In this document: in pieces, positions 1-39,364 of the stretch
How positions within the stretch are numbered: the first letter of the stretch is position 1
Layout of the letters: each line of letters begins with the position of its first letter
Virus record (IMG/VR): IMGVR_UViG_3300006854_000165
Location: 1-39,364 of that record
DNA length: 39,364 nt
Reading direction: 5' to 3' (one strand)
DNA from: a virus
The notes under the pieces: generated by a model
Told to the model about the DNA's origin: nothing
Database searches by the model: none
What the model saw: the letters and a program-made list of their open reading frames with translations, nothing else
Translations under genes and position numbers: made by a program

Positions 1-477
1 CTCGTGGCGACGCTCGTGGCGGCATACGTGGCGGCATACGTGGCGGCATACGTGGCGGCGCTCGTGGCGGCGTCCGTGGCGGCGTCCGTGGCGGCGCGCG
101 TGGCGGCGTCCGTGGCGGCGACCGTGGCGGCGTCCGTGGCGGCGCGCGTGGCGGCGTGCGTGGCGGCGTCCGTGGCGGCGTCCGTGGCGGCGCGCGTGGC
201 GGCGTCCGTGGCGGCGCGCGTGGCGGCGTACGTGGCGACGCGCGTGGCGGCGCTTGTGGCGACGCGCGTGGCGGCGTCCGTGGCGGCGCGCGTGGCGGCG
301 TGCGTGGCGGCGTCCGTGGCGGCGTCCGTGGCGGCGCTCGTGGCGTCGTCCGTGGCGGCGTCCGTGGCGGCGTACGTGGCGTCGACCGTGGCGGCGCTCG
401 TGGCGGCGTACGTGGCGTCGACCGTGGCGGCGCTCGTGGCGTCGTACGTGGCGGCGCGCGTGGGGGCGTACGTGGCG
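1..477 (-). repeat. 12-bp tandem array, left part (about 39 units)
   Basis: The plus-strand unit is cgtggcggcNNN. On the coding minus strand it is x-Ala-Ala-Thr, where x is Asp, Arg, Ser, Tyr, Val or His. Most variation falls in the x codon; the second codon is sometimes Val or Asp. Three tat-type units sit at 24-59, and a 36-bp higher-order unit occurs twice around 370-445. The array decays into unique sequence near 477. Units of 12 nt let copy number change without shifting the frame. Confidence 0.95.
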
Positions 478-872
478 GGCGCTACGACTGGCTCGCCACG
501 GAGAGATCGGATGCACATCTCGGTGGCACGACCAGCAGCGACACCAGCCGATGCCATCAATTCCTGCTCGGTCAGCAGTCGTCCGAACAGCTCCTTCTGC
601 TTGTTCGGGTTGGCTCGGAGCCAAATGGCTCCGCTTGCCACAGAGCAAGCGACCGCGCCGACCAACGGGCTTGAAACGAAGATGACCCGCTTGGGCTCGG
701 TAAGTTTCGCTGCATGATAGAGCGCGGCGACGCTCCCAACTGCATCTGCCTTTTCGACCTCGGTCATCGGTTCGCAGTTCAGCGCGTTGGCGATCCATTT
801 GTCACGCCACTCATTGAGTTGGCCCTTGTGCTCCGGGTGATCGTCGAATGAGTACAGTTTCTTCTTGTTCAT
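1..872 (-). CDS. DUF6745-like repeat protein, N-terminal part (runs off the left end)
   Basis: The ATG at 872 follows a GGAGG ribosome site at about 878-882. The first 131 residues are ordinary sequence: a basic start (MNKKKLYSF), then W-rich and Ala-rich segments including [13 protein letters not shown] and [16 protein letters not shown]. This resembles the part of DUF6745 proteins that precedes their C-terminal domain. From about position 477 the frame enters the 12-bp array and reads Ala-Ala-Thr-x with no stop to the window edge. It continues at the right end (38138-39364) in frame if the ends overlap by 2 nt. Function is unknown. It is the second gene of the operon that starts at 1425. 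The strand and frame are strongly supported because both non-repeat flanks are in this frame; the DUF6745 name is from family recognition. Confidence 0.8.
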
Positions 873-882
873 ATATCCTCCG

Positions 883-939
883 TGCCGAGCGCAGGAATCG
901 AACCTGCGCCATGTCACCAGACCGGCTATCAGTTCATGG
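883..939 (-). ncRNA. tRNA T-arm-like hairpin upstream of the DUF6745 gene
   Basis: On the minus strand 907-891 forms a perfect 5-bp T-stem around a TTCGATT loop, followed by GCTCGGC and A, the layout of a tRNA 3' end. A CCATG/CATGG inverted repeat (939-935 and 913-909) lies just upstream. I could not find a convincing 5' acceptor strand or D-arm; the best candidate (973-967, six of seven pairs with one wobble) lies inside the preceding gene. It may be a tRNA relic or a hairpin controlling the downstream gene. The last bases GGCACGGAGGAT recur at the second tRNA-like element before groES. Confidence 0.4.
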
Positions 940-1425
940 TCAGTCCGCAACCTGTCGTGGTAACTCCCCCGGCTGGTATTCGGCGTGGATGACAATCTGA
1001 TACACGCCAGGCGGAACGATGGTTGCGCCTGGCTCCTTCAGCTTCGTTGCCTTGTCGGTAATGTGCTGTTCGCACATGTACCGCTTCGCCTCGATGCCAC
1101 TGGCGAGGCCGTCGTAGTGCGTGGCGATCACGAACTTGCTCGGCTGGCAGAGCGCGCACCGGGTCTTGTGCTCCTCGTGCATGAGGGCGACCGGAGCGGT
1201 CACCTTCATGTACCTGGCATCGACCTCCGTGCGGTACATGCTCGCCGCTCGGTGTGGGATGCGATGCGCATGATCGGTGACCTCTCCATGCTGCAGGATG
1301 AGGCCGCGCTCGGTGCGCTCGTCGGCAAGCTTCGCGCCGTCTGGGACCCCGTCGACGCGGAACAGGAATACGTCACCCTGGCGGATTTGGATGGACTGTG
1401 GAGCGGATGCTTTCTTCTTGGGCAT
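940..1425 (-). CDS. QGDV-type small protein with inserted zinc knuckle
   Basis: 161 residues. Residues 16-20 (QGDVF), 47-55 (GEVTDHAHR), 81-86 (LMHEEH) and the end (VPPGVYQI, EYQP, QVAD) match a widespread small-protein family of unknown function built on QGDVLL, GEVTGHAH, HEEH and REYTP blocks. Between HEEH and PPGVY there are about 50 extra residues with C90-x2-C93 and C118-x2-H121, a plausible zinc site. ATG 1425 is chosen because a TTGACA element begins 35 nt upstream. It is the first gene of the long minus-strand operon, directly before the DUF6745 protein. The role is unknown; the zinc insertion is inferred from residue spacing. Confidence 0.82.
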   Translation of the reverse strand: MPKKKASAPQSIQIRQGDVFLFRVDGVPDGAKLADERTERGLILQHGEVTDHAHRIPHRAASMYRTEVDARYMKVTAPVALMHEEHKTRCALCQPSKFVIATHYDGLASGIEAKRYMCEQHITDKATKLKEPGATIVPPGVYQIVIHAEYQPGELPRQVAD

Positions 1426-7130: not shown

Positions 7131-7329
7131 GGTGCTCTCTGCGGCTGCGGTGGGCGCCGGAGGTCATACGGCTCGACCGACTGCTCTGAAGCGAGAGCGG
7201 CAACGCCAGGCGCAACACGATTGGCTTCTCGCCGAGCTGTTCCCACCGCGCCCGCCATGCAGCCCGCAGCACTGGCCGCTGGTGCTGGCGATCAACTGCG
7301 CAGCTGCGCGGGTGGCCGAGTACTTCTGA
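7111..7329 (+). CDS. Hypothetical protein between the terminase genes
   Basis: 72 residues. It starts at ATG 7111 inside the end of the small terminase gene (20-nt overlap) and ends as TGATG with the large subunit start. It is Ala-rich, with a basic helix (LKRERQRQAQHDWLLAELF) and a Pro-rich segment. No family recognised. The tight overlaps on both sides support a real coupled gene. Confidence 0.58.
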   Translation: MNGSGAEVLSAAAVGAGGHTARPTALKRERQRQAQHDWLLAELFPPRPPCSPQHWPLVLAINCAAARVAEYF

Positions 7330-8984
7330 TGGACATTGGCGCTCTGCTGGCAACTCGTCGAGCGCGTCGCGCTGATGAGCGGGCGGTGCGAGCGCTGACC
7401 GATGAGTGGTACGCGACGCAGCGAGCGGTGTGGACCGACCGCGCTCAGCTTGTGGCCTGGCATGGCGGGCGCCGCATGGGCAAGACCAGAGCAGGCGTGC
7501 GCTCGTTCCTCGACGAGCTTCTCTCGGTACCCGGGTCTCGCCAGTTGTACATCAACGAGACGGCGGGCGAGGCGGAGAGGCTGGCCTGGGTCGGCAACCG
7601 AGGGGATGGGTTCGAGCCGCTACTCAGCGAGTTGGGGATGCTCGAGAGCGGTCGTGGGCTGAGCCGCAAGCCGGGCCGAGTGAAGCTCGACCGCTCGACG
7701 TTGAGCATTCATTGCCCGGACATGGACAGCTGGATCTACCTGCGCGGCGCCGACGACGAAGCGGGGATCCGACGGGCACTGGGTGGTGCCTACAACCGCG
7801 TGTGGTGGGACGAGGCTCAGAAGATACCGAGCAAGCTGGCGACGACGATCCGCGAGGTCTTCATGCCGGCGCTGCTCGACTTCCGGGGGCGCTTCGTCGT
7901 CACCGGGACCGCGGTGCGCCAGATGCTCGGGCTGTTCTATGAGATCACCCGGCCCGAGCTCGATAAGCGCATGCCCGGCTGGTCGGTGCATTTCAGCAAC
8001 CTCCTCGAGAATCCGTACTGGGGGCACGCGAAAGGGCGGTACGTCGTCTGGGGCGCGCGCGATGAGGTCGTCAGCGGACCGCATATGCCGGGCGAGATGC
8101 CGGCGGCGATCTCCGGTGCTCGTTGGGAGATGGGCATGGTCGCTCTGCAGCGCCTGCTCGGTGGCCCCGAGGTCGCCCCGTTCGACGGCCCGACGATGCA
8201 GCGTGAGGGCTTCGGGCGCTGGGTCCGTGAGGACGCGAGCTACGTCTACCACGTGCATCAGGTACCCCGAGAGAAGCTCGTGTACGCGCCGCACCGCACG
8301 CGCGCTGATGGCTTCCCGGACATCCGCGCCGCGCTGCAGGATCTTCCCTGGGGCAAGGGCGAGGCATGGCGAGAAGGGCTGTTCGCGCTCGGTGGTGACC
8401 TCGGCTACCACCCGGACCCGTTCGCGTTCGTGCTGTGGGGATGGCACATGCACGACCGGCGCCTCTACGAGGTCGCGAGTTGGAAGCGGACGATGCTCGA
8501 CTCGGACGAGCAAGCGCGCGTGCTGCACTCAATCCGCGCTGAGCTCGCGCTGGCGATCACCGTGGTCGATGCCGGCGGGCCGGCCAAGCCGACGGTCGTG
8601 GGCTGGAGCAAAGAATGGGTGGAGCGGTACTCACTGCCGATCGAGGAGGCGCAGAAGGCGCACAAGCACACCGCCATCGAGGTGCTCAACGGCGACATCC
8701 GCACGGGCGGCGTGGCCCTGCGCGATGGGTCACCGCTGATGGCCGAGATGGAGGAGCTCCAGTGGCTCACCCGGCTCGTCGATGCGCGTGGCCGGATGAT
8801 CGAAGACCCAACCCAGCACAATCACTGCTGTGATGCGGCGCTCTACGCACATCGGCACAGCTATCAGTACCGGTGGCGACCAGAAGAGGTCAGACCGGCG
8901 CCGGGAACGCCAGAGCATGCTGTCCGGGAAGAGGCGGCGCTTGAGGATGAGGCGTTTTCTGAGCTAGATGAGGGATTCTCGTGA
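7329..8984 (+). CDS. terL: Terminase large subunit (ATPase and nuclease)
   Basis: 551 residues. It packages DNA into proheads by ATP hydrolysis and cuts concatemers. Walker A is GGRRMGKT (46-53) and Walker B is VWWDEAQ (158-164), with a VTGTA coupling motif near 191-195. The C-terminal RNase H-like nuclease has D357 (ALGGDLGYHPDPF), D414 (TVVDAGG) and D502 (HCCDAALYAH). ATG 7329 overlaps the preceding stop as TGATG; the upstream in-frame extension (7221-7328) overlaps gene 7111-7329 and is rejected. Length is typical. All key residues are present. Confidence 0.95.
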   Translation: MDIGALLATRRARRADERAVRALTDEWYATQRAVWTDRAQLVAWHGGRRMGKTRAGVRSFLDELLSVPGSRQLYINETAGEAERLAWVGNRGDGFEPLLSELGMLESGRGLSRKPGRVKLDRSTLSIHCPDMDSWIYLRGADDEAGIRRALGGAYNRVWWDEAQKIPSKLATTIREVFMPALLDFRGRFVVTGTAVRQMLGLFYEITRPELDKRMPGWSVHFSNLLENPYWGHAKGRYVVWGARDEVVSGPHMPGEMPAAISGARWEMGMVALQRLLGGPEVAPFDGPTMQREGFGRWVREDASYVYHVHQVPREKLVYAPHRTRADGFPDIRAALQDLPWGKGEAWREGLFALGGDLGYHPDPFAFVLWGWHMHDRRLYEVASWKRTMLDSDEQARVLHSIRAELALAITVVDAGGPAKPTVVGWSKEWVERYSLPIEEAQKAHKHTAIEVLNGDIRTGGVALRDGSPLMAEMEELQWLTRLVDARGRMIEDPTQHNHCCDAALYAHRHSYQYRWRPEEVRPAPGTPEHAVREEAALEDEAFSELDEGFS

Positions 8985-10311: not shown

Positions 10312-10340
10312 TTGACACCTTGTCGCGTGGGTGGTTCTCT
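10312..10340 (+). promoter_or_regulatory. Promoter of the portal gene
   Basis: TTGACA (10312-10317), a 17-nt spacer and TTCTCT (10335-10340). The predicted start is near 10347, beside GTG 10349. The GTGGTTCTCT block is shared with the site at 6590-6618. It would restart rightward transcription after the opposite-strand gene 9883-10257. Confidence 0.5.
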
Positions 10341-10348
10341 ACCCGGGA

Positions 10349-12340
10349 GTGGCAAGGAAACGCAATCGCCGGGCGGGTGTGCAAGAACCCATCAGGGCGC
10401 GGCGTGCGCCCATCGGCGATGAGAGCGGCTCGACCCTTCGTTGGTGGACGCTCAAGCCGGACGACGAGGGCTCGATCCACGTTGCGAACGCGGTGTTCGG
10501 CTGGATCGAGCGCCTGCGCGCGCGGCGCCGGGTCTCTGGCCTGCGCGACCTGCTGCACGAGGCCATCTACAAGGGGCGGCCGCTCGGCTCGTTGGGAGAC
10601 AACGAGCAGGCGTGGCTCAAGAGCAGCGCGCGATCGCCCGGCCAGCTCAACCTCGCCCGCTCGATGGTGGACACCGCCACCGCGCGCCTGACCAAGGTCC
10701 GCACGTTCCCGGTGATCAGCGCAGATGACGCGACCTGGGGCGAGAAGCGCAACGCCAAGACCGCGTCCCGCGTCATCCGGCGCAAGCTCGGCAGCGCCAA
10801 GCTCGAGCGCCAGAAGCCGGCAGTGATCCGCGCGGCGCTGATCCGCGGGACGGCCGTGCAGAAGGTCATCCGGCGGGGCGGTGACGTCGATGTCGAGCAC
10901 GTGCCCCGTTACGAGATCGTGCACGACCCTCGCGAGGCCAGATACGGCGAGCCGCGTTGCTTGGCGCACATCAAGCCGGTGCCCAAGAGCGTGCTCGCCG
11001 AGCGGTTCCCGGAGTACCAGGAGCAGATCGACCACGCCGCGACCTACGAGACCCAGGATGCGTGGATGGCCTACGTCTACGACGGCCCTGGCTACAACGA
11101 TCACGTCGAGGTCGCAGACATCTGGCATCTCCCCAGCGGGCCGGATGCCGACGATGGCACACACGTCATCGCGATTCGCGGCGTCGTGCTGCTCTGGGAG
11201 CCATGGACCCGGCCGCGCATGCCGCTGGTGTTCACGCACTGGTCGCCGCCCATCGACGAGATGTGGGGGCAGGGGCTCGTCGAGGACCTTGCCGGTATCC
11301 AGTCGTTGGTGAACCGCATCGCGCAGGATTCCCAGGAGGGCCACTATTGGTCATCCGCGGTGAAGCTGTTTGTGCAGCGCACGAGCGGCATCAACAAGCA
11401 CCACATGAAGGCGCGCTACCCAGCGCTGATCGAGCACGACGGTCCAGTGCCGGCGTACATCGCACCGAACCCCCAGGTCGAGCAGGCGCTGCGGCTCCTC
11501 GACTGGTACATCCAGCGCGCCTACGAGATCAGCGGCATCTCGCAGATGAGCGCATCGAGCAAGTCCACGCTCGGCAGCAACGCCAGCGGCAAGGCGCTCG
11601 ACACGATGGACGACCTGCAATCCGATCGGTTCGCACATGTCGAGGCCGGGTGGAAGGCAAGCCAGTGCGAGCTCGCGCAGGTGATGATCGACGAGGCGCG
11701 GGCCATCTCTGAAGATGAGAGCATCGCGCGGAGCGACAAGGCTGCGTGGATCACCGCGACCGACTGGAGTCGGGTCGACACCGATGCCGGCGACTACCAC
11801 CTGTACATCGAGCCCGAGAACTTCATCCCGGGCACGCGCGCTGGCCGACTCGAATACATCGAGGCCCTGGGCAAGAACGGGCTCATCCCTGATCCATCGA
11901 TGATCGCCGACGGGTTCGACGAGCCCGACCTGCAGCGGATGAACCGCACCACGCTCGGTCCGTTGCACAACATCCAGCGCATCGCCGACGGTCTCGCTGA
12001 CCCGAGGGTTCCGATGTTCGACCTGCAGCCGCACGCGAACATGAACTTGCCGCTCGCGAAGCTCGTCATCAACGGTGAGCTGAACGAGGCGGAGGCGTGC
12101 GGCGCGAGCGACGAGGAGTTGCAGCGCTACCGCGATTGGCTCGAATATCTGCGCGAGCTGATGACTTCTGCCACCTCGGGCTCGCCATCGCTGCCCGGCT
12201 CAATGCCCGACAACATGGGTCCGCAGCCCAATGCTACGACTCTTCAACCCGGGCTTCCGATGCCCGGAGGCCCGCCCGGTCCTGGCATGCCGCCGGGCGG
12301 TGCTCTACCCCCAGGGATGCCGCCGATGGGAATGGCATGA
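10349..12340 (+). CDS. Portal protein
   Basis: 663 residues from GTG 10349. It forms the dodecameric DNA gate at one head vertex. The length fits podovirus portals. Visible segments include the wing/stem region RPRMPLVFTHWSPPIDEMWG, then GLVEDLAGIQSLVNRIAQDS, and a helix-rich crown with YEISGISQMSASSKSTLGSN and SGKALDTMDDLQSDR, a layout typical of portals. The C-terminus is a Pro/Gly/Met-rich tail (about 610-663) that is probably disordered. A GTG at 10331 is in frame but overlaps the predicted -10 box. The stop overlaps the next start as ATGA. Confidence 0.85.
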   Translation: MARKRNRRAGVQEPIRARRAPIGDESGSTLRWWTLKPDDEGSIHVANAVFGWIERLRARRRVSGLRDLLHEAIYKGRPLGSLGDNEQAWLKSSARSPGQLNLARSMVDTATARLTKVRTFPVISADDATWGEKRNAKTASRVIRRKLGSAKLERQKPAVIRAALIRGTAVQKVIRRGGDVDVEHVPRYEIVHDPREARYGEPRCLAHIKPVPKSVLAERFPEYQEQIDHAATYETQDAWMAYVYDGPGYNDHVEVADIWHLPSGPDADDGTHVIAIRGVVLLWEPWTRPRMPLVFTHWSPPIDEMWGQGLVEDLAGIQSLVNRIAQDSQEGHYWSSAVKLFVQRTSGINKHHMKARYPALIEHDGPVPAYIAPNPQVEQALRLLDWYIQRAYEISGISQMSASSKSTLGSNASGKALDTMDDLQSDRFAHVEAGWKASQCELAQVMIDEARAISEDESIARSDKAAWITATDWSRVDTDAGDYHLYIEPENFIPGTRAGRLEYIEALGKNGLIPDPSMIADGFDEPDLQRMNRTTLGPLHNIQRIADGLADPRVPMFDLQPHANMNLPLAKLVINGELNEAEACGASDEELQRYRDWLEYLRELMTSATSGSPSLPGSMPDNMGPQPNATTLQPGLPMPGGPPGPGMPPGGALPPGMPPMGMA

Positions 12341-13741: not shown

Positions 13742-15013
13742 ATGCCCTTGGACCTTACCTCATATGACCCGATGCTGAAGGAGCACTACGCTCCGGGCGT
13801 CGTGGCCAATCTCGCCTACCAGAAGAACAAAGCTCTGGGCATGGTGAACAAGTCGAACAAGAAGCCCGGCGGCGGCCGTGAGTGGGTGCAGCCCATCCAG
13901 ATCACGCTCCCCGGCGGCGGCGCCTCTGTGTTCGCGACCGCGCTCAACGCGCTCACCGGCAGCAACGCCTCGCAGTACGCCGCGTTCCTCGTGCGGCGCG
14001 CTCGCCACTACCGCATCGGACGCGTCGACAACGAGACCATCGAGGCGACCGCAGATGGCGACATGGACGCATTCGAGCCGGCGTTCGATGAGTTCGACCG
14101 GCTGATGCAGGCGGAGGGGAATTACCTCAACTTCCGCTTCTTCCGCAGCCGCTCGGGTCACATCGCGCGCATGACGAACACCGCATTCGCCACGCCAATC
14201 ATGACCCTCGATGATGCTGCTGGGACCTGGGGCGTCGTCAAGAACGACACCATCATCCTGTCCGCCGGCGCCGGCGACACGGTGCAGACCATCAAGGCCG
14301 GCACGCTCACCGTCGCGAGCGTCCAGCGCTCCGCCGGCACCATCACGTTCACCGGCAACATCTCCGCCGGTGTCGCCACCGCCGCCACGAACGATTTCGT
14401 GTTTTTGAACGGCGATGCTATTACGAACGCAAGCGCCACGAATGGTCTCGCGCCGGCCGGTCTCATCGACTGGTTCCCGGATACCGCGCCCACCGCGACG
14501 CTGTTCTATGGCGTCGATCGCAGCGTCGAGCCGGAGCTGCTGGGTGGCATCCGGGTCGATGGCACGGACGGGCGGCCCATCCACGAGCTCCTCGTCGACA
14601 TGGTGCAGGAGGTCGACAACATCGGTGGCGAGCCGACCATCGTGTTCGCGAACCCGCGCGCGCTCGGCTCGCTCACGAAGCAGCTCGAGGGCAAGTGGGT
14701 CATCGACCAGGCGGCCGGGTACGGCGGGTCGAAGATCCCGCAGATCGGCTACAAGGGCTGGCAGGTCACGATGGAGGGCCACGAGCTTACCATCTACTCG
14801 GACCGGTGCTGCCAGACGAAGCGCGTCTGGATGCTCTCGATGGACACCATCACCATGTTCAGCGCCGGCCAAGCGCCGAACTTCCTCCAGAAGCGTGCCG
14901 GGTCGATCATCAAGGTCTCCGAGACCGCGGATGCGTACGAGAGCCGCGTCGGCGAGTACATGAACTTCTCGTGCAAGGCGCCCGGCTGGAACGTCAACGG
15001 GCAGCTGAGCTGA
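13742..15013 (+). CDS. Major capsid protein
   Basis: 423 residues, 11 bp after the scaffold gene. A helical N-terminus (DPMLKEHYAPGVVANLAYQK) is followed by a long helix region (FEPAFDEFDRLMQAEGNYLN), an inserted beta-domain with repeated Gly/Thr strands (about 155-240), and a C-terminal block with VVDMVQEVDNIGG-like helix and SDRCCQTKRVWMLSMDTITM. This pattern and position suggest an HK97-fold coat protein of the type seen in many uncultured podoviruses. The fold is inferred. Confidence 0.85.
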   Translation: MPLDLTSYDPMLKEHYAPGVVANLAYQKNKALGMVNKSNKKPGGGREWVQPIQITLPGGGASVFATALNALTGSNASQYAAFLVRRARHYRIGRVDNETIEATADGDMDAFEPAFDEFDRLMQAEGNYLNFRFFRSRSGHIARMTNTAFATPIMTLDDAAGTWGVVKNDTIILSAGAGDTVQTIKAGTLTVASVQRSAGTITFTGNISAGVATAATNDFVFLNGDAITNASATNGLAPAGLIDWFPDTAPTATLFYGVDRSVEPELLGGIRVDGTDGRPIHELLVDMVQEVDNIGGEPTIVFANPRALGSLTKQLEGKWVIDQAAGYGGSKIPQIGYKGWQVTMEGHELTIYSDRCCQTKRVWMLSMDTITMFSAGQAPNFLQKRAGSIIKVSETADAYESRVGEYMNFSCKAPGWNVNGQLS

Positions 15014-32177: not shown

Positions 32178-32440
32178 CAGCCGGCCTCGTTGAGCGAAGC
32201 TACGAAGTCGGCGAGCGCCTTCCGCAGCTGGTCCTGCGCGCGGGCGGCCTCTGCTTGAGCGAGCGACTGGGCCGCGAGGCAGTCCTTGAAGTACTGGAAG
32301 GCGCGATGCCGGGCGCCATGTAGAACTGTCACCGGAAGATGAGGAGCAATCCCATCGATGAGTCGTTGCGGCGATACATCGAGCATCGAGTTGATGTTCT
32401 CGATCGCTCGCCTCATCTCCTCGGACACGAGGTCGGTCAT
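32177..32440 (-). CDS. Hypothetical helical protein
   Basis: 87 residues. An N-terminal region (SEEMRRAIENINSMLDVSPQ) is followed by a long Ala/Gln-rich helix (AQSLAQAEAARAQDQLRKAL). Probably a small coiled-coil protein. ATGA overlap with the preceding gene and TGATG with the next. No family recognised. Confidence 0.62.
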   Translation of the reverse strand: MTDLVSEEMRRAIENINSMLDVSPQRLIDGIAPHLPVTVLHGARHRAFQYFKDCLAAQSLAQAEAARAQDQLRKALADFVASLNEAG

Positions 32441-32655
32441 GGCATCCGCTCCACGACATCCTCCTCCAGAATCTCGAGGACGTTCGACACCGGGACGCGC
32501 ATCCGCTTCCCTACCAGCGCCTTGCCAGTCGCCGGGGTGATGATCAGCCAGGCCCCCTTTTCGATGAGGGTGAATGAGTTGCCGTTCTTCTCCTTGCTCC
32601 ACGACTCACCGATGCTCGGAACCGGGTCCCTGAACTGTACTCTCAGAATCGCCAT
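32437..32655 (-). CDS. Hypothetical small beta-rich protein
   Basis: 72 residues, strand-rich (AILRVQFRDPVPSIG, NSFTLIEKGAWLIIT, KRMRVPVSNVLEILEE). The pattern of short strands ending in NVLEI resembles small phage proteins of unknown role. It overlaps the upstream zinc protein gene by 50 nt in another frame. Confidence 0.62.
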   Translation of the reverse strand: MAILRVQFRDPVPSIGESWSKEKNGNSFTLIEKGAWLIITPATGKALVGKRMRVPVSNVLEILEEDVVERMP

Positions 32656-32797
32656 CGAATCGCTCCTTGTTCCTGGCGACCATCGCCAGGTAGTTGTGGA
32701 CCCGAGCCGACGACGAGCTTCCGCACTCGTCGCATGCCGGATCAGTAAGTGATGTGAACGCGGCCTCGCGTAGGCCGCACCATGCGCATAGGCTCAT
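32606..32797 (-). CDS. Small zinc-ribbon protein
   Basis: 63 residues from ATG 32797. C5-x2-C8 (CAWCGLREAAF) and a C-x2-C pair (DPACDECGS) form a likely zinc ribbon, followed by a helix (ARVHNYLAMVARNKERF). It overlaps gene 32437-32655 by 50 nt, which is longer than other overlaps here, but both frames look coding. Probably a DNA- or protein-binding adaptor; the role is unknown. Confidence 0.6.
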   Translation of the reverse strand: MSLCAWCGLREAAFTSLTDPACDECGSSSSARVHNYLAMVARNKERFDGDSESTVQGPGSEHR

Positions 32798-32982
32798 GGC
32801 TTGAGTTCCACTTTCATGGCATTCGCCCACCATCTGAGCCTCCCCATCGCGGATGGAGTCACCGATGCGAAGTCACCGTGGAATGGAATCTGTTGGCCAC
32901 CAGCACCGCGCTGCTCCAGCACTCGGTCAGCGGCTTCGACCTCAGCAATGAACCCGATGGCGATATGCTCCAGGTTGGTCAT
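32794..32982 (-). CDS. Hypothetical small protein
   Basis: 62 residues, with ATGA overlaps on both sides. The sequence is a helix (NLEHIAIGFIAEVEAADRVL) followed by a basic aromatic end (MGRLRWWANAMKVEL). No family recognised. Confidence 0.6.
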   Translation of the reverse strand: MTNLEHIAIGFIAEVEAADRVLEQRGAGGQQIPFHGDFASVTPSAMGRLRWWANAMKVELKP

Positions 32983-33308
32983 CGCGACAACCCAACTCCG
33001 CGCGCTGGCCGCTGGATGATCTGGTAGAACGAGCCATAGCTGTTGTTGTACCAGACCTCGCAAAACCAGTATCGGTCTGGACAGTTTACGATGGCATAGG
33101 AGCGGAACGCATTGGCGACCTCTCGGAGGCCACCGGTTCCACCGAGGTGGGTGCTCTGCTGCGCAGATGCGACCGCCCATCCGTCGAGCTTCCGCTCCAT
33201 CTCGAGGAGGTCATCACCCGGTCGATCCTCCAACCCAATCGCAAAGGTCATCTCCTCTCCGATGACCTCCAATCGGATGTACGATTCCACCGGAGGTAGG
33301 TCGCTCAC
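32979..33308 (-). CDS. Hypothetical protein
   Basis: 109 residues from GTG 33308 (GTGA overlap). Mixed alpha/beta: strands (YIRLEVIGEEMTFAIGLE), a central helix (DDLLEMERKLDGWAVASAQ), and an aromatic end (DRYWFCEVWYNNSYGSFYQI). No family recognised. Confidence 0.62.
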   Translation of the reverse strand: MSDLPPVESYIRLEVIGEEMTFAIGLEDRPGDDLLEMERKLDGWAVASAQQSTHLGGTGGLREVANAFRSYAIVNCPDRYWFCEVWYNNSYGSFYQIIQRPARGVGLSR

Positions 33309-33673
33309 GACTTCCTCCGGCGAATCTCCTCGTGCAGAGACTTCGCGAGCGCGAGCTTTCGATCCTGTGATGCCGGTACCACGACTGGCACGATGAAGTC
33401 GCTGCCAGTCTTCGGAGCATCCTTGCGGAGCTGTAGGAAGTCGGGCAATAGGGCGCGCTGCCCAGCAAGCACGTCCTTCACCTCTTGGGTCATCGGATAG
33501 GCGTCCTTAAGCATCGCATCGAACTTCGCGACATCGGTAGTGCGGAATCGCTTCTGCTCAGCCCGCCATGCCAGGCGACGCGCGCTCGCGCGACCGTGGC
33601 GAACACCGAGTGCATAGTTGAAGAACATCGTCGCGAGCAGGATGCTCCAGGCGAGCGCCTGCCACCAGCTCAC
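33305..33673 (-). CDS. Hypothetical single-span membrane protein
   Basis: 122 residues from GTG 33673. The N-terminus is one membrane helix (ALAWSILLATMFFNYALGV) followed by a very basic stretch (RHGRASARRLAWRAEQKRF), so the rest should be cytoplasmic. The C-terminal part is helical. No family recognised. It directly follows groES in the operon. Confidence 0.64.
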   Translation of the reverse strand: MSWWQALAWSILLATMFFNYALGVRHGRASARRLAWRAEQKRFRTTDVAKFDAMLKDAYPMTQEVKDVLAGQRALLPDFLQLRKDAPKTGSDFIVPVVVPASQDRKLALAKSLHEEIRRRKS

Positions 33674-34152
33674 GACGGCATCTCCGGCAGCGGGTCGATC
33701 TCGTCCGGGTCAGCCCAGCCCTCCTTGACCGCGACCCGCATCTCCTCCTGCGACTGGTATGCGGAGTCGGGGATGGCCAGGCTGCGCGGCATGACCGACA
33801 ACAGCCGGCCATTGGCATCGGTGAGTGCCGACACGACTGGAAGGTCGTGCACGATGCTCACGACCTCCGCCTCACGCATCAGGAGCTTCGTGCTCTCCCT
33901 GCCATCCTCATCAATCACCGGGATGAGCGCGGGGGCCTTGCGTGGGTAGCAGATGACGTCTCCCGGCTTCACGGTGAGCGGCACGACCTTGCCCTCCGCG
34001 TTGACGCGCCCTGCACCAACGGCATCCACCGTGGCGAAGGCGACGTGCTTGTTCTCCTGCGCAACATCGGGGACGAAGATCCCCCCCGGCGTGCGGCGGC
34101 GCTCCGATACCGGAGTCGCGATGATGCGGTCTGCGAGTGGCTGGTGTCTCAT
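33670..34152 (-). CDS. GroES-like co-chaperonin
   Basis: 160 residues. Residues 1-100 match the Cpn10 fold: PLADRIIATPV, GGIFVPDVAQE, VDAVGAGR, then VKPGDVICYPRKAPALIPV and MREAEVVSIV. These caps seal the GroEL chamber; phage versions such as T4 gp31 let the host chaperonin fold phage proteins, usually the coat protein. Residues 101-160 are an extra tail of unknown role not found in host GroES. ATG 34152 has a GGAGG site, and a tRNA-like element ends about 13 nt upstream. It is placed among early genes, so it would be made before coat protein synthesis. Confidence 0.85.
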   Translation of the reverse strand: MRHQPLADRIIATPVSERRRTPGGIFVPDVAQENKHVAFATVDAVGAGRVNAEGKVVPLTVKPGDVICYPRKAPALIPVIDEDGRESTKLLMREAEVVSIVHDLPVVSALTDANGRLLSVMPRSLAIPDSAYQSQEEMRVAVKEGWADPDEIDPLPEMPS

Positions 34153-34164
34153 TGAAATCCTCCG

Positions 34165-34286
34165 TGCCCATGACGGGAATCGAACCCGCGTCTACGCATA
34201 GGAGCACACGCTCGGAATCATACGTGCCGCGGTAGAAGATGGTAGCCCGCGGATATGCGTCGTGTCGCCGTCCACACTGCATGGGC
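34165..34286 (-). ncRNA. tRNA-like RNA with a 57-nt anticodon loop
   Basis: On the minus strand the 122-nt segment forms every arm of a tRNA: 7-bp acceptor GCCCATG/CATGGGC, 2-nt linker, D-stem GTGT/ACAC with loop GGACGGCG, 1-nt linker, anticodon stem ACGCA/TGCGT (extendable to 7 bp), 4-nt variable region, and T-arm GCGGG-TTCGATT-CCCGT with discriminator A. The anticodon loop is 57 nt instead of 7 and contains a CCGCGG/CCGCGG hairpin. No CCA is encoded. It may be an intron-bearing tRNA, a tmRNA-like fold, or a regulatory mimic for groES. All listed pairs were checked by eye. Confidence 0.5.
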
Positions 34287-34319
34287 GTTGTGTTACTTAT
34301 TCTCGACTGGCGGAAGGTC

Positions 34320-34384
34320 TGACAGGAGTCGCTCGAGCACCCGACCTGTCATCAGGTTCCGCGAGAAACAGTACTCGCGGAATC
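34320..34384 (-). other. Hairpins in the leader before groES
   Basis: Two inverted repeats: TGACAGG (34320-34326) with CCTGTCA (34345-34351), and TTCCGCGAG (34357-34365) with CTCGCGGAA (34374-34382), a perfect 9-bp stem with an 8-nt loop. A third imperfect pairing (ATCGAT...ATAT) lies at about 34381-34417. With the tRNA-like element they fill most of the 313-bp gap between the acetyltransferase and groES, the only large gap in this operon. Confidence 0.5.
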
Positions 34385-34465
34385 GATCATATACCGACCT
34401 TTTCAGCGATATCGATCCGCACGGTCGCGGATTATTCTTGCCGTCCTTCTTCATTGGTACTGACA

Positions 34466-34852
34466 CTACCGGTGCGCCAGTGCTTCGTCAAGATGCATCC
34501 GAGTTGCTGAGAACCGAGCGAGCAGCTGCTTGGTTGCAGGACCCGGCACCGTATAGATGAACGGCGCAGCGAGCGACCGATTCGCCGGCCACGCTGCGTC
34601 GATCATCTTCCGGGCGACACCCACACCGCGGGCTTCTCTGCGCACGTACAGGTAGTGCAGCAGGCGGATACTGGGAAGCGCGGCGATCGCGAGCCATCCG
34701 AGGATGTGCTCGGGATCGCGCTCGACCACGAGAACACGGGTGAACGGATGGTCCAGGACTCGATCGATCGTGGTGCTCGACAGTCCGCTCGACCATCCCC
34801 AGGTCGACGCAACGTACCTCCGGTCGTCTGGCTTCCACACCCGGACCCTCAC
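34466..34852 (-). CDS. GNAT-family acetyltransferase
   Basis: 128 residues from GTG 34852 (GTGA overlap). Acetyl-CoA-binding motif A is LHYLYVRREARGVGVARKMI (66-85) with the R-x2-G-x-A-like loop R75-G-V-G-V-A80. Strand VLVVERDPEHILGWLAI precedes it. The target is unknown; a phage GNAT could modify host protein or nucleotide. It lies upstream of the structured leader and groES. The C-terminal part (PGPATKQLLARFSATRM) looks complete. Confidence 0.75.
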   Translation of the reverse strand: MRVRVWKPDDRRYVASTWGWSSGLSSTTIDRVLDHPFTRVLVVERDPEHILGWLAIAALPSIRLLHYLYVRREARGVGVARKMIDAAWPANRSLAAPFIYTVPGPATKQLLARFSATRMHLDEALAHR

Positions 34853-35085
34853 CGGCGCCGCTCCCCTCCAGCGTTCACCGGAAGCGGCGGCACCCTGCCA
34901 TCGGACAACAGGCGTGGGCGTGCCGTCCACTGCGCCGCGCTGCGTCCGGCCTGGCGATGCTTGTGGACTCGAAGCTTCCCATTCCAGTGCCGGTACGCGG
35001 TCTCGCCGCATGCGCACCTGTACTGCCCGACGCAGAGCGGGATGGGAGCCCAAGCATGCTCGTGATCGCTCACTTGATCCGCCAT
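34849..35085 (-). CDS. Small His/Cys-rich (zinc) protein
   Basis: 78 residues. The N-terminal HEHAW and PLCVGQYRCACGETAY motif is common in small phage proteins and probably binds zinc through His and Cys residues. The rest is basic and probably disordered. It overlaps the upstream gene by 16 nt and the GNAT gene by GTGA. Function unknown. Confidence 0.65.
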   Translation of the reverse strand: MADQVSDHEHAWAPIPLCVGQYRCACGETAYRHWNGKLRVHKHRQAGRSAAQWTARPRLLSDGRVPPLPVNAGGERRR

Positions 35086-35339
35086 GCCCGGAGTATCTTC
35101 TCCTGCAGGAGCTGCGGCAGGAGCAGACGAGACCGGAGCTCGCGCTCGCGCTCGGCCTCATAGTCCTGCGCGTACTTCAGGACGTTGGGTAGCGGGATGC
35201 GCAGCGTGGCCATCTCGAGCGCGAGCGCAGCGCCAAGCTCGGCATCCTCGAGTCGCCTATCTCGCTGCTTGGCGAGCAGTGATGGGTCTGTCCTCAGGTA
35301 CTCGAGGCGACGGGCGACGTATCCTCCGGGCTTGCTCAT
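35070..35339 (-). CDS. Hypothetical helical protein
   Basis: 89 residues with AGGAG before ATG 35339. Mostly helical and charged (ARRLEYLRTDPSLLAKQRDR, VLKYAQDYEAERERELRSRL), Leu/Arg-rich. No family recognised. ATGA overlap with the preceding gene. Confidence 0.62.
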   Translation of the reverse strand: MSKPGGYVARRLEYLRTDPSLLAKQRDRRLEDAELGAALALEMATLRIPLPNVLKYAQDYEAERERELRSRLLLPQLLQEKILRAWRIK

Positions 35340-35518
35340 CTCATCTCCTTCACGTCTTGGAATGCGAGTTGCTCTGCATTCCGCCTTGGGTAGCCGCCGA
35401 GGTACTCGCGGATGGCGGCTCGCTCGTCGAAGTCGTCGAGCACGTCGTACACGTTGAGGCGACGCTCGACAGCCCAAGCTGAGACCTGTGGGCGCACTTG
35501 GTCGGGGCGTGGCTTCAT
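35336..35518 (-). CDS. Hypothetical small protein
   Basis: 60 residues: a short basic start, then VYDVLDDFDERAAIREYLGG, a helix-like acidic segment, and a final helix. No family recognised. It overlaps both neighbours as ATGA, which supports it. Confidence 0.6.
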   Translation of the reverse strand: MKPRPDQVRPQVSAWAVERRLNVYDVLDDFDERAAIREYLGGYPRRNAEQLAFQDVKEMR

Positions 35519-35682
35519 GCGTGGTACACCCCGGGCGGCACGCCATTACAATGCGATTGCGCAAGCATCGACACCAGCTCGATGAACGAGTACTCGTACC
35601 GGACCGCATCGCCGGTGATGCTGCTCATGCTCGCAATGAACGCCAGGACGGCGGCGCGCGGGCGTGGGGCTCGTTCGTTCAT
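35515..35682 (-). CDS. Hypothetical 55-residue protein
   Basis: The frame ATG 35682 to TGA 35515 has ATGA overlaps at both ends: the start with RecT's stop and the stop with gene 35336-35518. The sequence (MNERAPRPRAAVLAFIASMS, then RYEYSFIELVSMLAQ) looks folded. No family recognised. It fills what would otherwise be a 160-bp gap in a tightly packed operon. Confidence 0.6.
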   Translation of the reverse strand: MNERAPRPRAAVLAFIASMSSITGDAVRYEYSFIELVSMLAQSHCNGVPPGVYHA

Positions 35683-36593
35683 GCTCCCTCTCGTTCCTGC
35701 CGCGCGATCTCCGCGGCTTCCTCCGGTGTCACCTCGTGCGCGTCCTCCACCTGCTCTCGCATGCTGGCGGCCATCCCAGCAGCGGCCTCGGTGCGGCTCG
35801 CCTCGCCATCGGTTACGATGTCCAGGACGTCGCGGTCGCTGCGCTTGCCTTCTTCCTGCGCCTGCTCGACCGCGAGCCCGACGTAGTAGTCATGGCCGAG
35901 CGGAAGGCGCTTCGCGAGCCGGCGGATCGGGCTCTTTCGCCACATCTGGTCGCCCCAGTCCTTCCAGGCATCGCTCATACCGCGTCCGGTTGCCACCGCC
36001 TTTACCGCGTCGAGGTCTGCCCGATCCATCCACTCGACGTCGTAGCTCACGATGCTATCGCGCGAGCCGAGGAGCTTGGCGACGGCGTAGGCGCCGATGA
36101 TAGCGCCCCGGTCTCCGCGCAATACCGGGCGGTGCACCGGTGGAGTCCCGCCCCCCAGGTCGAGCTCGAACACATCGTGCTCGAACACGACCTGGGGGTT
36201 GATGGTCATGACCTCGCGGCTTCGCTTGGCCTGTTTCACCAGGCCGCGCCATCCGGCCATGAACTGGGCCTTGCCGCCGAATGGGACGATGTACGCCTCT
36301 CCCTTGAGCGCGCCCGGCTCGAGCCCGGTGACGGCGCAGGCGAGGAGCGAGGTGTAGATGCTCTCCTTGGAGCAAGCGCGTAGCTTGTCTGCCTTGGGCG
36401 CGGACAGGTCGAGCATGGCGAAGCGGACCAGGGCGCGCGGGTCCACGCCTCCGGTGATCCACTTCTCGAGCTGGGGGAGCTTCGCTTCCAGGTACCCCTT
36501 ATGCTCATTGAGCTGGCGGACCAGCGCGTTGCTTTGGTTGACCCCCTCTGCCATGCGCCGGCCACTCTCGGTGTAGGCATTCTTCATGCTCAT
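35679..36593 (-). CDS. recT: RecT single-strand annealing protein
   Basis: 304 residues. It binds single-stranded DNA and anneals complementary strands in phage recombination. The RecT core is clear: KESIYTSLLACAVTGLEPGA, then YIVPFGGKAQFMAGWRGLVK, VFEHDVFELDLGG, AIIGAYAVAKLL, a helix with PIRRLAKRLPL near 225, and an acidic tail from about 275. Length matches the family. It is two genes downstream of a YqaJ exonuclease, the usual partner that makes the single strands. ATGA overlaps on both sides. Confidence 0.93.
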   Translation of the reverse strand: MSMKNAYTESGRRMAEGVNQSNALVRQLNEHKGYLEAKLPQLEKWITGGVDPRALVRFAMLDLSAPKADKLRACSKESIYTSLLACAVTGLEPGALKGEAYIVPFGGKAQFMAGWRGLVKQAKRSREVMTINPQVVFEHDVFELDLGGGTPPVHRPVLRGDRGAIIGAYAVAKLLGSRDSIVSYDVEWMDRADLDAVKAVATGRGMSDAWKDWGDQMWRKSPIRRLAKRLPLGHDYYVGLAVEQAQEEGKRSDRDVLDIVTDGEASRTEAAAGMAASMREQVEDAHEVTPEEAAEIARQEREGA

Positions 36594-36820
36594 GCTGTTC
36601 TCCTGGTAGTCGTTCGTTGCACGGTAGGGATGTCGACGATCTCCACCGGGATGGAGTCGGTCAGCTCGGCGCGAAGGTCCCGGACCTCGGCGGCGAGACG
36701 CTCGCGTTCATCCGCGCACAGCGCCAGTTCGCGTGCCAGGGTCGTGATGTACACCTGCGCCTCGCGGAATTGGGCGAGGATTCGGTTGAAGTTGGCTTGT
36801 TCTTCAGGACTCATCGTCAT
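36590..36820 (-). CDS. Hypothetical coiled-coil protein between exonuclease and recT
   Basis: 76 residues from ATG 36820 (MTMSP); the second ATG at 36814 has a better spaced GGGG and is an alternative. A long helix (NFNRILAQFREAQVYITTLA, then ERERLAAEVRDLRAEL) is likely a coiled coil; the end is Thr/Arg-rich. It overlaps the exonuclease gene by 17 nt. It may bridge or regulate the recombination pair, by position only. Confidence 0.65.
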   Translation of the reverse strand: MTMSPEEQANFNRILAQFREAQVYITTLARELALCADERERLAAEVRDLRAELTDSIPVEIVDIPTVQRTTTRRTA

Positions 36821-37826
36821 CCCCTGCGAACCCGCGCGGGGTCTTGATGGCCCAGGTCTTAGCCGGTCGCTTGAAGCTGAGCACGGCTGGTCGCTCGCCT
36901 CCCCTGAGAGCGGACTCGAGAGCCATGGCGTACCCCTTCCAATCCATCCCGGCTCCGGCCCGGTAGGCCGAGAACCGGCCGAGCTCGTCATCCTGGAGTG
37001 CGGTCGCGCCATGCGCGGACAGGTGGAGAAGTAGGTGGTTGTTCAGGCGGTCTACTTCTTCCTTGGCGGCTGCAGCTCGTACCTTGGCAGCTCGGAGCGG
37101 AAGTAGCAGCTCGTCGCGCACGCCATCGTCGGATGGGATGACGACCTTGCTGTCGCGTGGCATCAGCTCGCTCACATGCGCGCGCCAGGCGTTCGTGTGA
37201 TCCGGTAGTGGCTCGGTCCCGTTCTGAACGAGCGTCCAGAACGAGCGCAACGACTTCAAGATCGCGGCCTCGATCTCCAGGTTGCGATGCACCCGGTGGA
37301 TCACGAACCGGTTGCCGCCGATGAGCGCAGCGATGTCGCACCATGGCAATCCGGTAACAGCCATCTCAACCCGGACCTGCACCTCGTACTTCGGTGGTGG
37401 CCCATGGTCCCACTCATGGGCCAGCCATCCATCTGCGGTCTTGCACTGGACCAATCCTATGTTCCGGGACAAACCAATGGACTGGAACCATCCGGCATGA
37501 ACCTCCACGACTCCAGGCTCCATGATTGTCGAATGCGCGAATCCATCCGGCGTGCACCGCAGCCATCCAGTCAGCAAAACCGAGTCCGGCTGGACAAGTA
37601 CTCGTGACCGGGTAGATGTCGCGTACTTCCCGCGTACCACAGGTTCCAGCAACTGGCCCCACTCAGCTGCCTCGCTCGGCCCGGTGTCCTCGACCTCGAG
37701 ACCGCGGTGCCGGCGCCAGATCTTGATGGGTGGGTTGTACCTGTCGAGGCCAAGAACGCCAGCCGCTTCGCTGGCACCAAGGCAGGACTGATCGCGTTCC
37801 TGTTCGACATGGATAACGGCGCTCAT
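36804..37826 (-). CDS. YqaJ-type viral recombinase exonuclease
   Basis: 340 residues. It should resect double-stranded ends to give 3' overhangs for RecT. The YqaJ domain is seen: GASEAAGVLGLDRYNPP (17-33), WGQLLEPVVRGKYA with E61, TPDGFA with D94, GLVQCKTADGW (124-134) and the KYEVQVRVEMAVTG helix (146-159). The catalytic E-x-K is Q127-C-K129 here, an unusual Glu to Gln change. The C-terminal half is helical and extends beyond the domain. ATG 37826 (GAGG site, ATGA overlap) is preferred over TTG 37844. Confidence 0.87.
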   Translation of the reverse strand: MSAVIHVEQERDQSCLGASEAAGVLGLDRYNPPIKIWRRHRGLEVEDTGPSEAAEWGQLLEPVVRGKYATSTRSRVLVQPDSVLLTGWLRCTPDGFAHSTIMEPGVVEVHAGWFQSIGLSRNIGLVQCKTADGWLAHEWDHGPPPKYEVQVRVEMAVTGLPWCDIAALIGGNRFVIHRVHRNLEIEAAILKSLRSFWTLVQNGTEPLPDHTNAWRAHVSELMPRDSKVVIPSDDGVRDELLLPLRAAKVRAAAAKEEVDRLNNHLLLHLSAHGATALQDDELGRFSAYRAGAGMDWKGYAMALESALRGGERPAVLSFKRPAKTWAIKTPRGFAGDDDES

Positions 37827-37954
37827 GGAGCCTCGATTCTGCAATCACATCGAGAGGCATTATCCCAGTGGGCGCTGATTACGATCACGATGTCGTGATG
37901 TCCAGCTGCGCAAAGCATGGCCTCGACTACCTCACGTTTCTCGTCTAATCCCAT
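37823..37954 (-). CDS. Hypothetical 43-residue protein
   Basis: ATG 37954 to TGA 37823, linked to the upstream gene by TGATG and to the exonuclease by ATGA. The sequence (MGLDEKREVVEAMLCAAGHH then DIVIVISAHWD) looks like a helix followed by a strand, with Cys and His near the end (RCDCR). No family recognised. Overlaps at both ends support translation. Confidence 0.58.
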   Translation of the reverse strand: MGLDEKREVVEAMLCAAGHHDIVIVISAHWDNASRCDCRIEAP

Positions 37955-38136
37955 CACCACACCGCCAGTCCGCCATCGTTGGCCGCCTCGAAAGCGTCAT
38001 GCAGCCCTTCGTGATGCCGGGCGCGCTTGCAGTTGTGCACGCGGCCATCGAGCGTGATGAGATGGTGGCATCGGCGATGCTCTTGCATCACCTGATCCCA
38101 TGGCCACTCAGTTTTGTTGGGTCGCTCGATGCGCAT
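37954..38136 (-). CDS. Small Cys/His-rich protein
   Basis: 60 residues from ATG 38136, 1 nt after the DUF6745 gene's stop. The motif C-H-H...C-x3-R-HH (RRCHHLITLDGRVHNCKRAR then HHEGLHDAF) looks like a zinc-binding knuckle. Possibly a regulator or DNA-binding adaptor; no family recognised. Confidence 0.62.
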   Translation of the reverse strand: MRIERPNKTEWPWDQVMQEHRRCHHLITLDGRVHNCKRARHHEGLHDAFEAANDGGLAVW

Positions 38137-38137
38137 C

Positions 38138-39364
38138 TCAGGTCTCCAGGGAAGGGATGTACTCGTGGCCATAACGGCCGTAGGTGCTCGCGATGGCATT
38201 TTGGCAGGTCATCTTCTGGGGCTTGCGTGATTCCGGCGTCGAGTACGGTGAACCAGGGAATGGCAGTGGCCGAAGCTGCGGATCGCAGCGGAATGGTCCG
38301 TATACCTTCAGCGTTCCATCTGGCTCCGGGGTGCTATTGATGACCTTGATTGCCACGTATGGCTCGTCGTCAGGGATGTCGATGCGCAGAAGCTCGCGCG
38401 GATTGCCGAGCATATCGACATCGGAGTGAATGACCTTGGCTCCGATGTCGCGGATCCAGCGGCCGGAGTCTCCCTCGTTGTACTTGGCGATCATCACCCG
38501 GCGAACTTCGGCATTCGACTGGTCCAGACATTCCTGCGCTGTGAATTGACCAGCGGTGATCCGGGGGGTGACCCGAATGCCGTGGATATGGTGCAGCTCC
38601 ACGCCATCACGCCACCTGATGTGCGGTCCGTTCGCGTTGTGCGCGCGACACACCGGGCTTCCATCGCGATACACGAACTCCGGGCGATCTGCGATGATGC
38701 AGAAGTCCGCATGAATGAAGCGCGGTCCGAGCTTTCCCAAGTCTTCATACGCCGCAAACTTGGAGTAGTCGATGTCGAGCTTGGCGACGTGCCGGAAGAA
38801 CGTCAGATACGACAGCCAACCCGACCACATGTTTCCGCCGTTCCAGAACTTCCACCAATGTTGGGTGCACTGAATGAGGAATCCGACGACGCCAGTTGTG
38901 GCGGCGCGCGTGGCGGCGTACGTGGCGGCGTCCGTGGCGGCGCTCGTGGCGGCGTCCGTGGCGGCGTCCGTGGCGTCGACCGTGGCGGCGTACGTGGCGG
39001 CGCTTGTGGCGACGCGCGTGGCGGCGTCCGTGGCGGCGTACGTGGCGGCGCTTGTGGCGGCGTACGTGGCGGCGTCCGTGGCGGCGCGCGTGGCGACGCG
39101 CGTGGCGGCGCTTGTGGCGACGCTCGTGGCGGCGTCCGTGGCGGCGCTCGTGGCGACGCGCGTGGCGGCGCTTGTGGCGACGCTCGTGGCGGCGTCCGTG
39201 GCGGCGCTCGTGGCGACGCGCGTGGCGGCGCTTGTGGCGACGCTCGTGGCGGCGTCCGTGGCGGCGCGCGTGGCGGCGTACGTGGCGGCGTCCGTGGCGG
39301 CGCGCGTGGCGGCGTCCGTGGCGGCGTCCGTGGCGTCGACCGTGGCGGCGTACGTGGCGGCGCT
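38138..39364 (-). CDS. DUF6745-like repeat protein, C-terminal part (runs off the right end)
   Basis: Continuation of 1-872. From 39364 to 38897 the frame reads 39 Ala-Ala-Thr-x units, then TTGVVGFLIQCTQHWWKFWN and about 250 folded residues: PRFIHADFCIIADRPEFVYR, GPHIRWRDGVELHHIHGIRV, NAEVRRVMIAKYNEG and INSTPEPDGTLKVYGPFRC. These are the blocks of DUF6745 (HADF..CDRP, GPxxxWxDG, NxEVRRVMI, VNSTPEPDG). The family is of unknown function and often carries an AAT/DAT-type low-complexity segment before this domain. Stop at 38138. Together with the left part the protein has at least 690 residues. Confidence 0.85.
   Translation of the reverse strand, partial: SAATYAATVDATDAATDAATRAATDAATYAATRAATDAATSVATSAATRVATSAATDAATSVATSAATRVATSAATDAATSVATSAATRVATRAATDAATYAATSAATYAATDAATRVATSAATYAATVDATDAATDAATSAATDAATYAATRAATTGVVGFLIQCTQHWWKFWNGGNMWSGWLSYLTFFRHVAKLDIDYSKFAAYEDLGKLGPRFIHADFCIIADRPEFVYRDGSPVCRAHNANGPHIRWRDGVELHHIHGIRVTPRITAGQFTAQECLDQSNAEVRRVMIAKYNEGDSGRWIRDIGAKVIHSDVDMLGNPRELLRIDIPDDEPYVAIKVINSTPEPDGTLKVYGPFRCDPQLRPLPFPGSPYSTPESRKPQKMTCQNAIASTYGRYGHEYIPSLET
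38897..39364 (-). repeat. 12-bp tandem array, right part (39 units)
   Basis: 39 complete units in the same register and frame as the left array. A 60-bp higher-order unit is repeated: 39121-39180 and 39181-39240 are identical, and 39061-39120 is a diverged copy with three mismatches. The last 60 bases of the window (39305-39364) are an exact copy of 38945-39004, which is where an assembler would stop. The true length is therefore uncertain. Confidence 0.95.

Follow-up and report, generated by a model that had tools for sequence, protein, structure and literature searches.

We analyzed a virus contig of 39,364 bases from IMG/VR (IMGVR_UViG_3300006854_000165), referred to here as the window, whose two ends both lie in a tandem array of tetrapeptide codons. 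Tandem Repeats Finder (TRF) placed period-12 arrays at 3-478 and 38898-39364. The minus-strand AATx frame was open from an ATG at 872 to the low end of the window (290 aa), and again from base 39364 down to its stop at 38138 (408 aa), in agreement with an initial annotation of this DNA that had put both ends inside one 12-bp array. The coordinates given there for the gene (38138-39364) were right, but the gene also requires 1-872 of the other end, where a GGAGG ribosome-binding site lies just 5' of the ATG at 872. The features of the window to which we refer are the following:

1..477, minus strand: N-terminal array half, 38 complete xAAT units and a linker (TRF; unit count)
478..872, minus strand: N-terminal part of the array gene, 131 aa (N-domain profile; BLASTP to P0009)
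946..1425, minus strand: partner gene, 160 aa, phrog_27831-like (adjacency of the family; phrog_27831, E 1.1e-4)
7329-8984, plus strand: terminase large subunit (PHROGs match)
10331-12340, plus strand: portal (PHROGs match)
13742-15013, plus strand: major head protein (PHROGs match)
33670-34152, minus strand: phage-encoded GroES-like co-chaperonin (phrog_3188, E 8.9e-11)
35679-36593, minus strand: RecT (PHROGs match)
36804-37826, minus strand: RecE-like exonuclease (PHROGs match)
37954-38136, minus strand: small ORF (ORF call)
38138..38896, minus strand: DUF6745 (PF20530) C-terminal domain, 252 aa, including the stop (Pfam)
38897..39364, minus strand: C-terminal array half, 39 xAAT units (TRF; unit count)

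The terminase, portal and major head protein genes, all on the plus strand between 7329 and 15013, indicate a tailed phage. The small ORF and the genes for the RecE-like exonuclease and RecT lie downstream of the array gene on the same strand as that gene. A tyrosine integrase domain was not found in the phage record.

The high-end part of the array gene matched the Pfam family DUF6745 (PF20530) with an E-value of 2.5e-23 and 82.9 bits, above the curated gathering cut-off of 27, and the match spanned positions 44-175 of the 206 in the model. The low-end part had no Pfam match and was recognized by a profile of the N-terminal conserved domain of the family (~100-130 aa) with an E-value of 5.9e-47, the profile alignment including the window's own row. 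Each of the two domains was present in one copy in the record. By BLASTP, the low-end part was similar to a complete homologue, the Mycobacterium abscessus prophage protein P0009, which has a GDQL-type array (E 4e-7), and to a Manatee Spring phage protein with a GSSL-type array (E 2e-4). The 38 complete units at the low end and the 39 at the high end gave 77, where the initial annotation had claimed 78 or more; its estimate of at least 690 residues held, as the joined protein would have 698 aa with a 2-nt overlap of the ends. Within the window's array, the codon for x was nearly always NNC (D, S, R, Y, V or H), residue 2 was A, V or D, and the third and fourth codons were GCC and ACG with few exceptions. 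Codon bias was rejected as the cause of these uniform codons, since the Ala codons of the array were all GCC while only 10 of 34 were GCC in the flanks.

Viral contigs were also scanned at the DNA level for runs of three units in a row; of the 42 stretches found, nearly all carried one or both of the N-domain and the DUF6745 domain. A protein-profile scan of virus contigs identified 283 relatives of the C-terminal domain, many of them with an array, and 80 of these were kept. Many relatives consisted of one uninterrupted ORF carrying the N-domain, about 9 to 93 units and the DUF6745 domain; the intact ORFs had 73 (L088), 80 (L130) and 93 (L064) units, and ~83 in L049 as counted from the printed ORF. 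Overall, the unit number ranged from about 5 to 97. These scans confirmed that the array feature, correctly spotted in the initial annotation, is real and widespread. The closest loci to the window were L032 (62% identity in the N-part and 52% in the partner) and L038 (65% in the C-part, 71% in the terminase and 70% in the portal). DUF6745 proteins of actinobacteria and Hyphomicrobiales resembled the window in having the C-domain above the cut-off, the N-domain and the neighbour gene. One of these bacterial loci, on a Hansschlegelia chromosome (L054), had 76 units and a site-specific integrase nearby, and DUF6745 was present in 10 of the 297 genomes of the order to which Hansschlegelia belongs. 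In contrast to the window and most of the phage members listed, a number of members on chromosomes or plasmids (Streptomyces, Nonomuraea) had no array. Since the array is absent in some members, such as L003, L004 and L010, it is dispensable for whatever the domains do.

Several observations on single relatives stood apart from these patterns. In L038 (IMGVR_UViG_3300030019_000990) the gene order was rearranged with respect to the window, the matches to 32440-35545 sitting between the matches to 7131 and 6603, and the relative orientation of the array gene was opposite to that in the window. On a Nocardia farcinica plasmid (L005, 570-1929) the N-domain and the DUF6745 domain were in different frames of one array, which reflects either a frameshift inside the array or a sequencing error, as changes by 12-nt units alone are frame-neutral. 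The bacterial DUF6745 genes of L003, L004 and L006, from Streptomyces and Deinococcus, adjoined genes of the STM4011-STM4015 families (radical SAM and others). Locus L002, from the first single-protein viral scan, was spurious, being the antisense of an unrelated gene, and an early mixed alignment contained too much diversity to be scanned for patterns.

The initial annotation had joined the two ends of the window through a 2-nt overlap. Its register arithmetic was right, an overlap of 2 mod 12 being the same as a gap of 10 mod 12, but the 2 nt carry no weight as a real overlap. In four further contigs that likewise begin and end in the array, the terminal identity was 2, 2, 111 and 1 nt; two of the three identities of 1-2 nt were out of register (7 and 0 mod 12 were needed) and one was in register by a single base. 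The sole convincing case of the four was IMGVR_UViG_3300031825_000044 with its 111-nt in-register end overlap. Because the 2-nt identity is uninformative, 77 units is a lower bound and the true count in the window may be higher. The substrings shared by the two array halves were no longer than those for shuffled units (46 nt; at least that length in 385 of 500 shuffles), so the array content alone is no proof that the halves join.

To this we could add the layout of other contigs. Among 45 records in which the DUF6745 ORF was cut at a contig end inside the array, the N-domain was found in 20, and in 20 out of 20 it was at the opposite end, within ~1.4 kb of it and head-to-tail (contigs of 36-91 kb). 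Intact contigs had one N-domain per record (14/14). The opposite-end location and the single N-domain of intact contigs together indicate that the array breaks the assemblies of circular or permuted genomes, and the circular or circularly permuted molecule proposed earlier for the window agrees with this. This assembly reading is well supported by independent contigs. Breakage in the array also accounts for the at least 20 other phage contigs whose ends fall in the array gene, and such contigs are probably nearly complete circles. The Pfam match, the N-domain homology, the uninterrupted homologous ORFs and the 20 head-to-tail contigs thus support a single gene across both ends of the window. 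Its flanks, which might have belonged to different families, are of one family, the C-part by its Pfam match and the N-part by homology to the corresponding region of complete DUF6745 proteins, and the description of the product as a DUF6745-like protein stands.

The opening of so many contigs of 36-91 kb exactly in the array could also mean that the array forms the physical ends of the packaged genome, as a pac or terminal-redundancy site, and that the contig ends are real termini. We consider this very unlikely, as the gene is intact and internal in many contigs and in bacterial genomes and the terminase gene is ~6.5 kb away, at 7329. Moreover, in 40 of the 80 relatives kept the contig end fell within the ORF, on the side of the array, and in the other half it did not, which fits a repeat that assemblers often leave unresolved. 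An assembly chimera, in which the ends would be halves of two different array genes, has in its favor that the record lacks the sequence between the ends and that their exact overlap is a mere 2 nt, but it is even less probable, given the single N-domain and single C-domain of the record and the same head-to-tail layout in 20 other contigs.

We compared arrays between related loci to see how they vary, mostly in metagenome assemblies, which can mis-join repeats. Loci L018, L021 and L033, from three metagenomes, represent nearly one phage. The sole difference between L021 and L033 over 4.4 kb was a 24-bp (2-unit) deletion, and L018 differed from L033 by 10 SNPs in 11.4 kb, of which four lay inside the 216-bp array, each of them changing x or b. 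Naturally occurring indels of two units in otherwise near-identical phages support the variable spacer length suggested in the initial annotation, which had also proposed comparing unit counts among related genomes; these counts do differ. The C-domains were identical and the upstream arrays different in the pairs L058/L059 and L110/L112, and L029 and L042, with C-domains 91% identical, had arrays unlike each other with different x alphabets. Mean heterozygosity over 59 arrays, a set from which related and overlapping records were not fully removed, was 0.60, 0.40 and 0.34 at nt 1, 2 and 5 of the 12-nt unit, and no other site exceeded 0.033. The variable nt 1, 2 and 5 are all amino-acid-changing (residues x and b), while the synonymous third positions were nearly fixed in these 59 arrays. 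Motifs differed by lineage (xAAT, xDQL/xGQL, xSSL, xASV, xGAV, xAQV, xANL and xANI), and the x alphabet differed from array to array (D/R/Y/S/H or G/R/W/E), but many lineages shared a common tetrad plan, x - [A/D/G/S] - [A/Q/N/S] - [T/L/V/I]. As judged from these comparisons, the array changes by gain or loss of whole units and its variation is confined to residues x and b. The earlier description of a frame-neutral, slippage-prone array therefore captured the change in unit number but missed the strongly patterned amino-acid-changing variation. A diversity-generating retroelement target was rejected since the record had no match to reverse transcriptase (RVT_1). Separately, five of the 10 SNPs of L018 relative to its near-identical phage lay within 58 bp (10840-10897) of a gene similar to the portal-like gene of the window; this stretch is either another spot of fast change or a patch exchanged by recombination.

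The partner gene (946-1425, minus strand), which had been missed in the initial annotation, is directly upstream of the array gene and encodes the motifs RQGDV, GEVTxHxH and HEEH; its family has the pattern RQGDV ... GEVTGHxH ... HEEH ... EYxPE. It had no match in Pfam, NCBIfam or PADLOC. The partner family adjoined the DUF6745 gene, upstream or downstream, in 72 of 78 N-domain loci; the partner profile had been built in part on these loci, and some of them share one contig. In a separate bacterial sample from the order of Hansschlegelia, the partner was next to DUF6745 in 10 of 12 loci, two near-identical copies included; one of the two loci where it was not seen was L054 itself, in which the partner lay beyond the short stretch read. 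The partner was also kept beside the array-less DUF6745 protein on Streptomyces plasmids. Judged by this gene order, the partner and the DUF6745 gene are a conserved two-gene module.

The only phage protein with a tetrapeptide array of this sort for which we found a reported function was Tweety gp54 of a mycobacteriophage. It has an AAxx array with a 12-bp unit in which codon positions 1-2 vary, and the unit number differs among its relatives (PMC2884959); Tweety gp54, Che8 gp57 and PMC gp51 share a central array of ~15-48 tetrapeptides with two invariant alanines and invariant third codon positions. Repeat-number mutants of gp54 gain counter-defence, the escape mutants gaining or losing repeats against the Phrann and MichelleMyBell prophage systems (PMC9262239; PMC8549241). 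The array of the window resembles that of gp54 in its 12-bp unit, its tetrapeptides, its variable codon positions 1-2 and its fixed third position. On the other hand, the window flanks had no detectable homology to gp54 in single BLASTP comparisons (E 0.013 and 29), gp54 belongs to phrog_3416 while the window parts do not, gp54 has no DUF6745 domain, and the partner gene was not found in 4 kb around Tweety gene 54. Since the flanks are not detectably related, we treat gp54 as an analogue that may work like the array gene, not as a member of its family. Tandem-repeat copy number also differs between isolates in bbp36 of Bordetella phage BMP-1, but the VR2 of this phage gene is unlike the window in having a 24-bp element with variable spacers and no known tropism role (cited in PMC2884959).

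AlphaFold predicted the folded domains with moderate to good confidence and the array with low confidence (pLDDT about 35-60), drawn as a helix. Fold searches with both models gave no match with E < 0.001. The top match of one model was winter-flounder type I antifreeze protein (E 0.69), which was set aside as probably reflecting just an Ala/Thr-rich helix. A sequence search of the PDB gave no match, PADLOC and NCBIfam yielded no known defence system and just weak matches to unrelated models, and our literature search found no paper mentioning DUF6745.

Our best explanation, to which as a whole we assign a probability of roughly 0.45, is that the window covers all or nearly all of a tailed-phage genome, from a circular or circularly permuted assembly opened inside the tandem array, with one split array gene and its partner, and that the array is an adjustable linker toward a defence target. 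The gene, read after the small partner gene (946-1425, minus strand), would produce a protein with the conserved N-domain, an array of at least 77 tetrapeptide units and the DUF6745 C-domain. The array would be a frame-neutral linker, adjustable in length and composition. By tuning either the spacing of the conserved N- and C-terminal domains or the recognition surface between them, it would determine the way in which these domains, together with the partner, engage a target that evolves quickly. Such a target would most likely be a host or prophage defence component, as the repeat-number changes in Tweety gp54 suggest. That the product is a tunable conflict protein is a tentative proposal by analogy with gp54, somewhat short of even odds. 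The family is widespread, with a C-domain relative in 283 virus contigs, and it shares its array logic with gp54, on flanks that have no detectable homology. Natural unit-number variants and a conserved partner make it testable whether repeat number or repeat lettering sets specificity.

The conserved adjacency of the partner could be taken further, to a two-gene phage conflict module made of the GEVTxHxH/HEEH protein and the DUF6745 protein, in which the array would be a rapidly evolving specificity code, with unit number and the two variable residues shuffled against host or prophage defences; we regard this fuller version as unlikely. Also rather improbable to us is an array that acts as a recognition surface and not as a mere spacer, with x and b as specificity letters shuffled as in TAL effectors and the order and content of the units outweighing their number. 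It would account for x and b being the sole strongly variable residues in 59 arrays, for x alphabets that differ even between L029 and L042, and for the near-fixed synonymous sites, which make the variation at x and b look selected. However, the very wide length range and the arrays that are absent altogether fit it poorly, no confident fold was obtained for the array, and nothing is known to be read by such tetrads.

We are equally doubtful of a low-complexity linker that changes by slippage and is in essence neutral, neither its length nor its letters having a function. The frame-neutral 12-nt unit, the freely varying unit number (about 5 to 97), the array-less members and the low AlphaFold confidence would all be expected of such a linker. 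Neutral change, however, would be expected to produce synonymous and replacement variants equally often, whereas x1, x2 and b2 vary at least 10 times as much as any synonymous site, and the plan x-[A/D/G/S]-[A/Q/N/S]-[T/L/V/I] recurs over many lineages. The adjustable linker remains our preferred reading.

A tRNA-like mini-element with an acceptor and a T arm only was noted at 883-926 (minus strand), in the interval that separates the ribosome-binding site of the array gene from the partner gene. It scored 21.3 bits against the Rfam tRNA model, under the cut-off of 29, and ARAGORN found no tRNA. Its T-arm pattern was seen in 2 of 78 loci only, and L032 had a degenerate tRNA-like stretch at the equivalent position. 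The element may be what is left of an attachment site, or a tRNA that has decayed.
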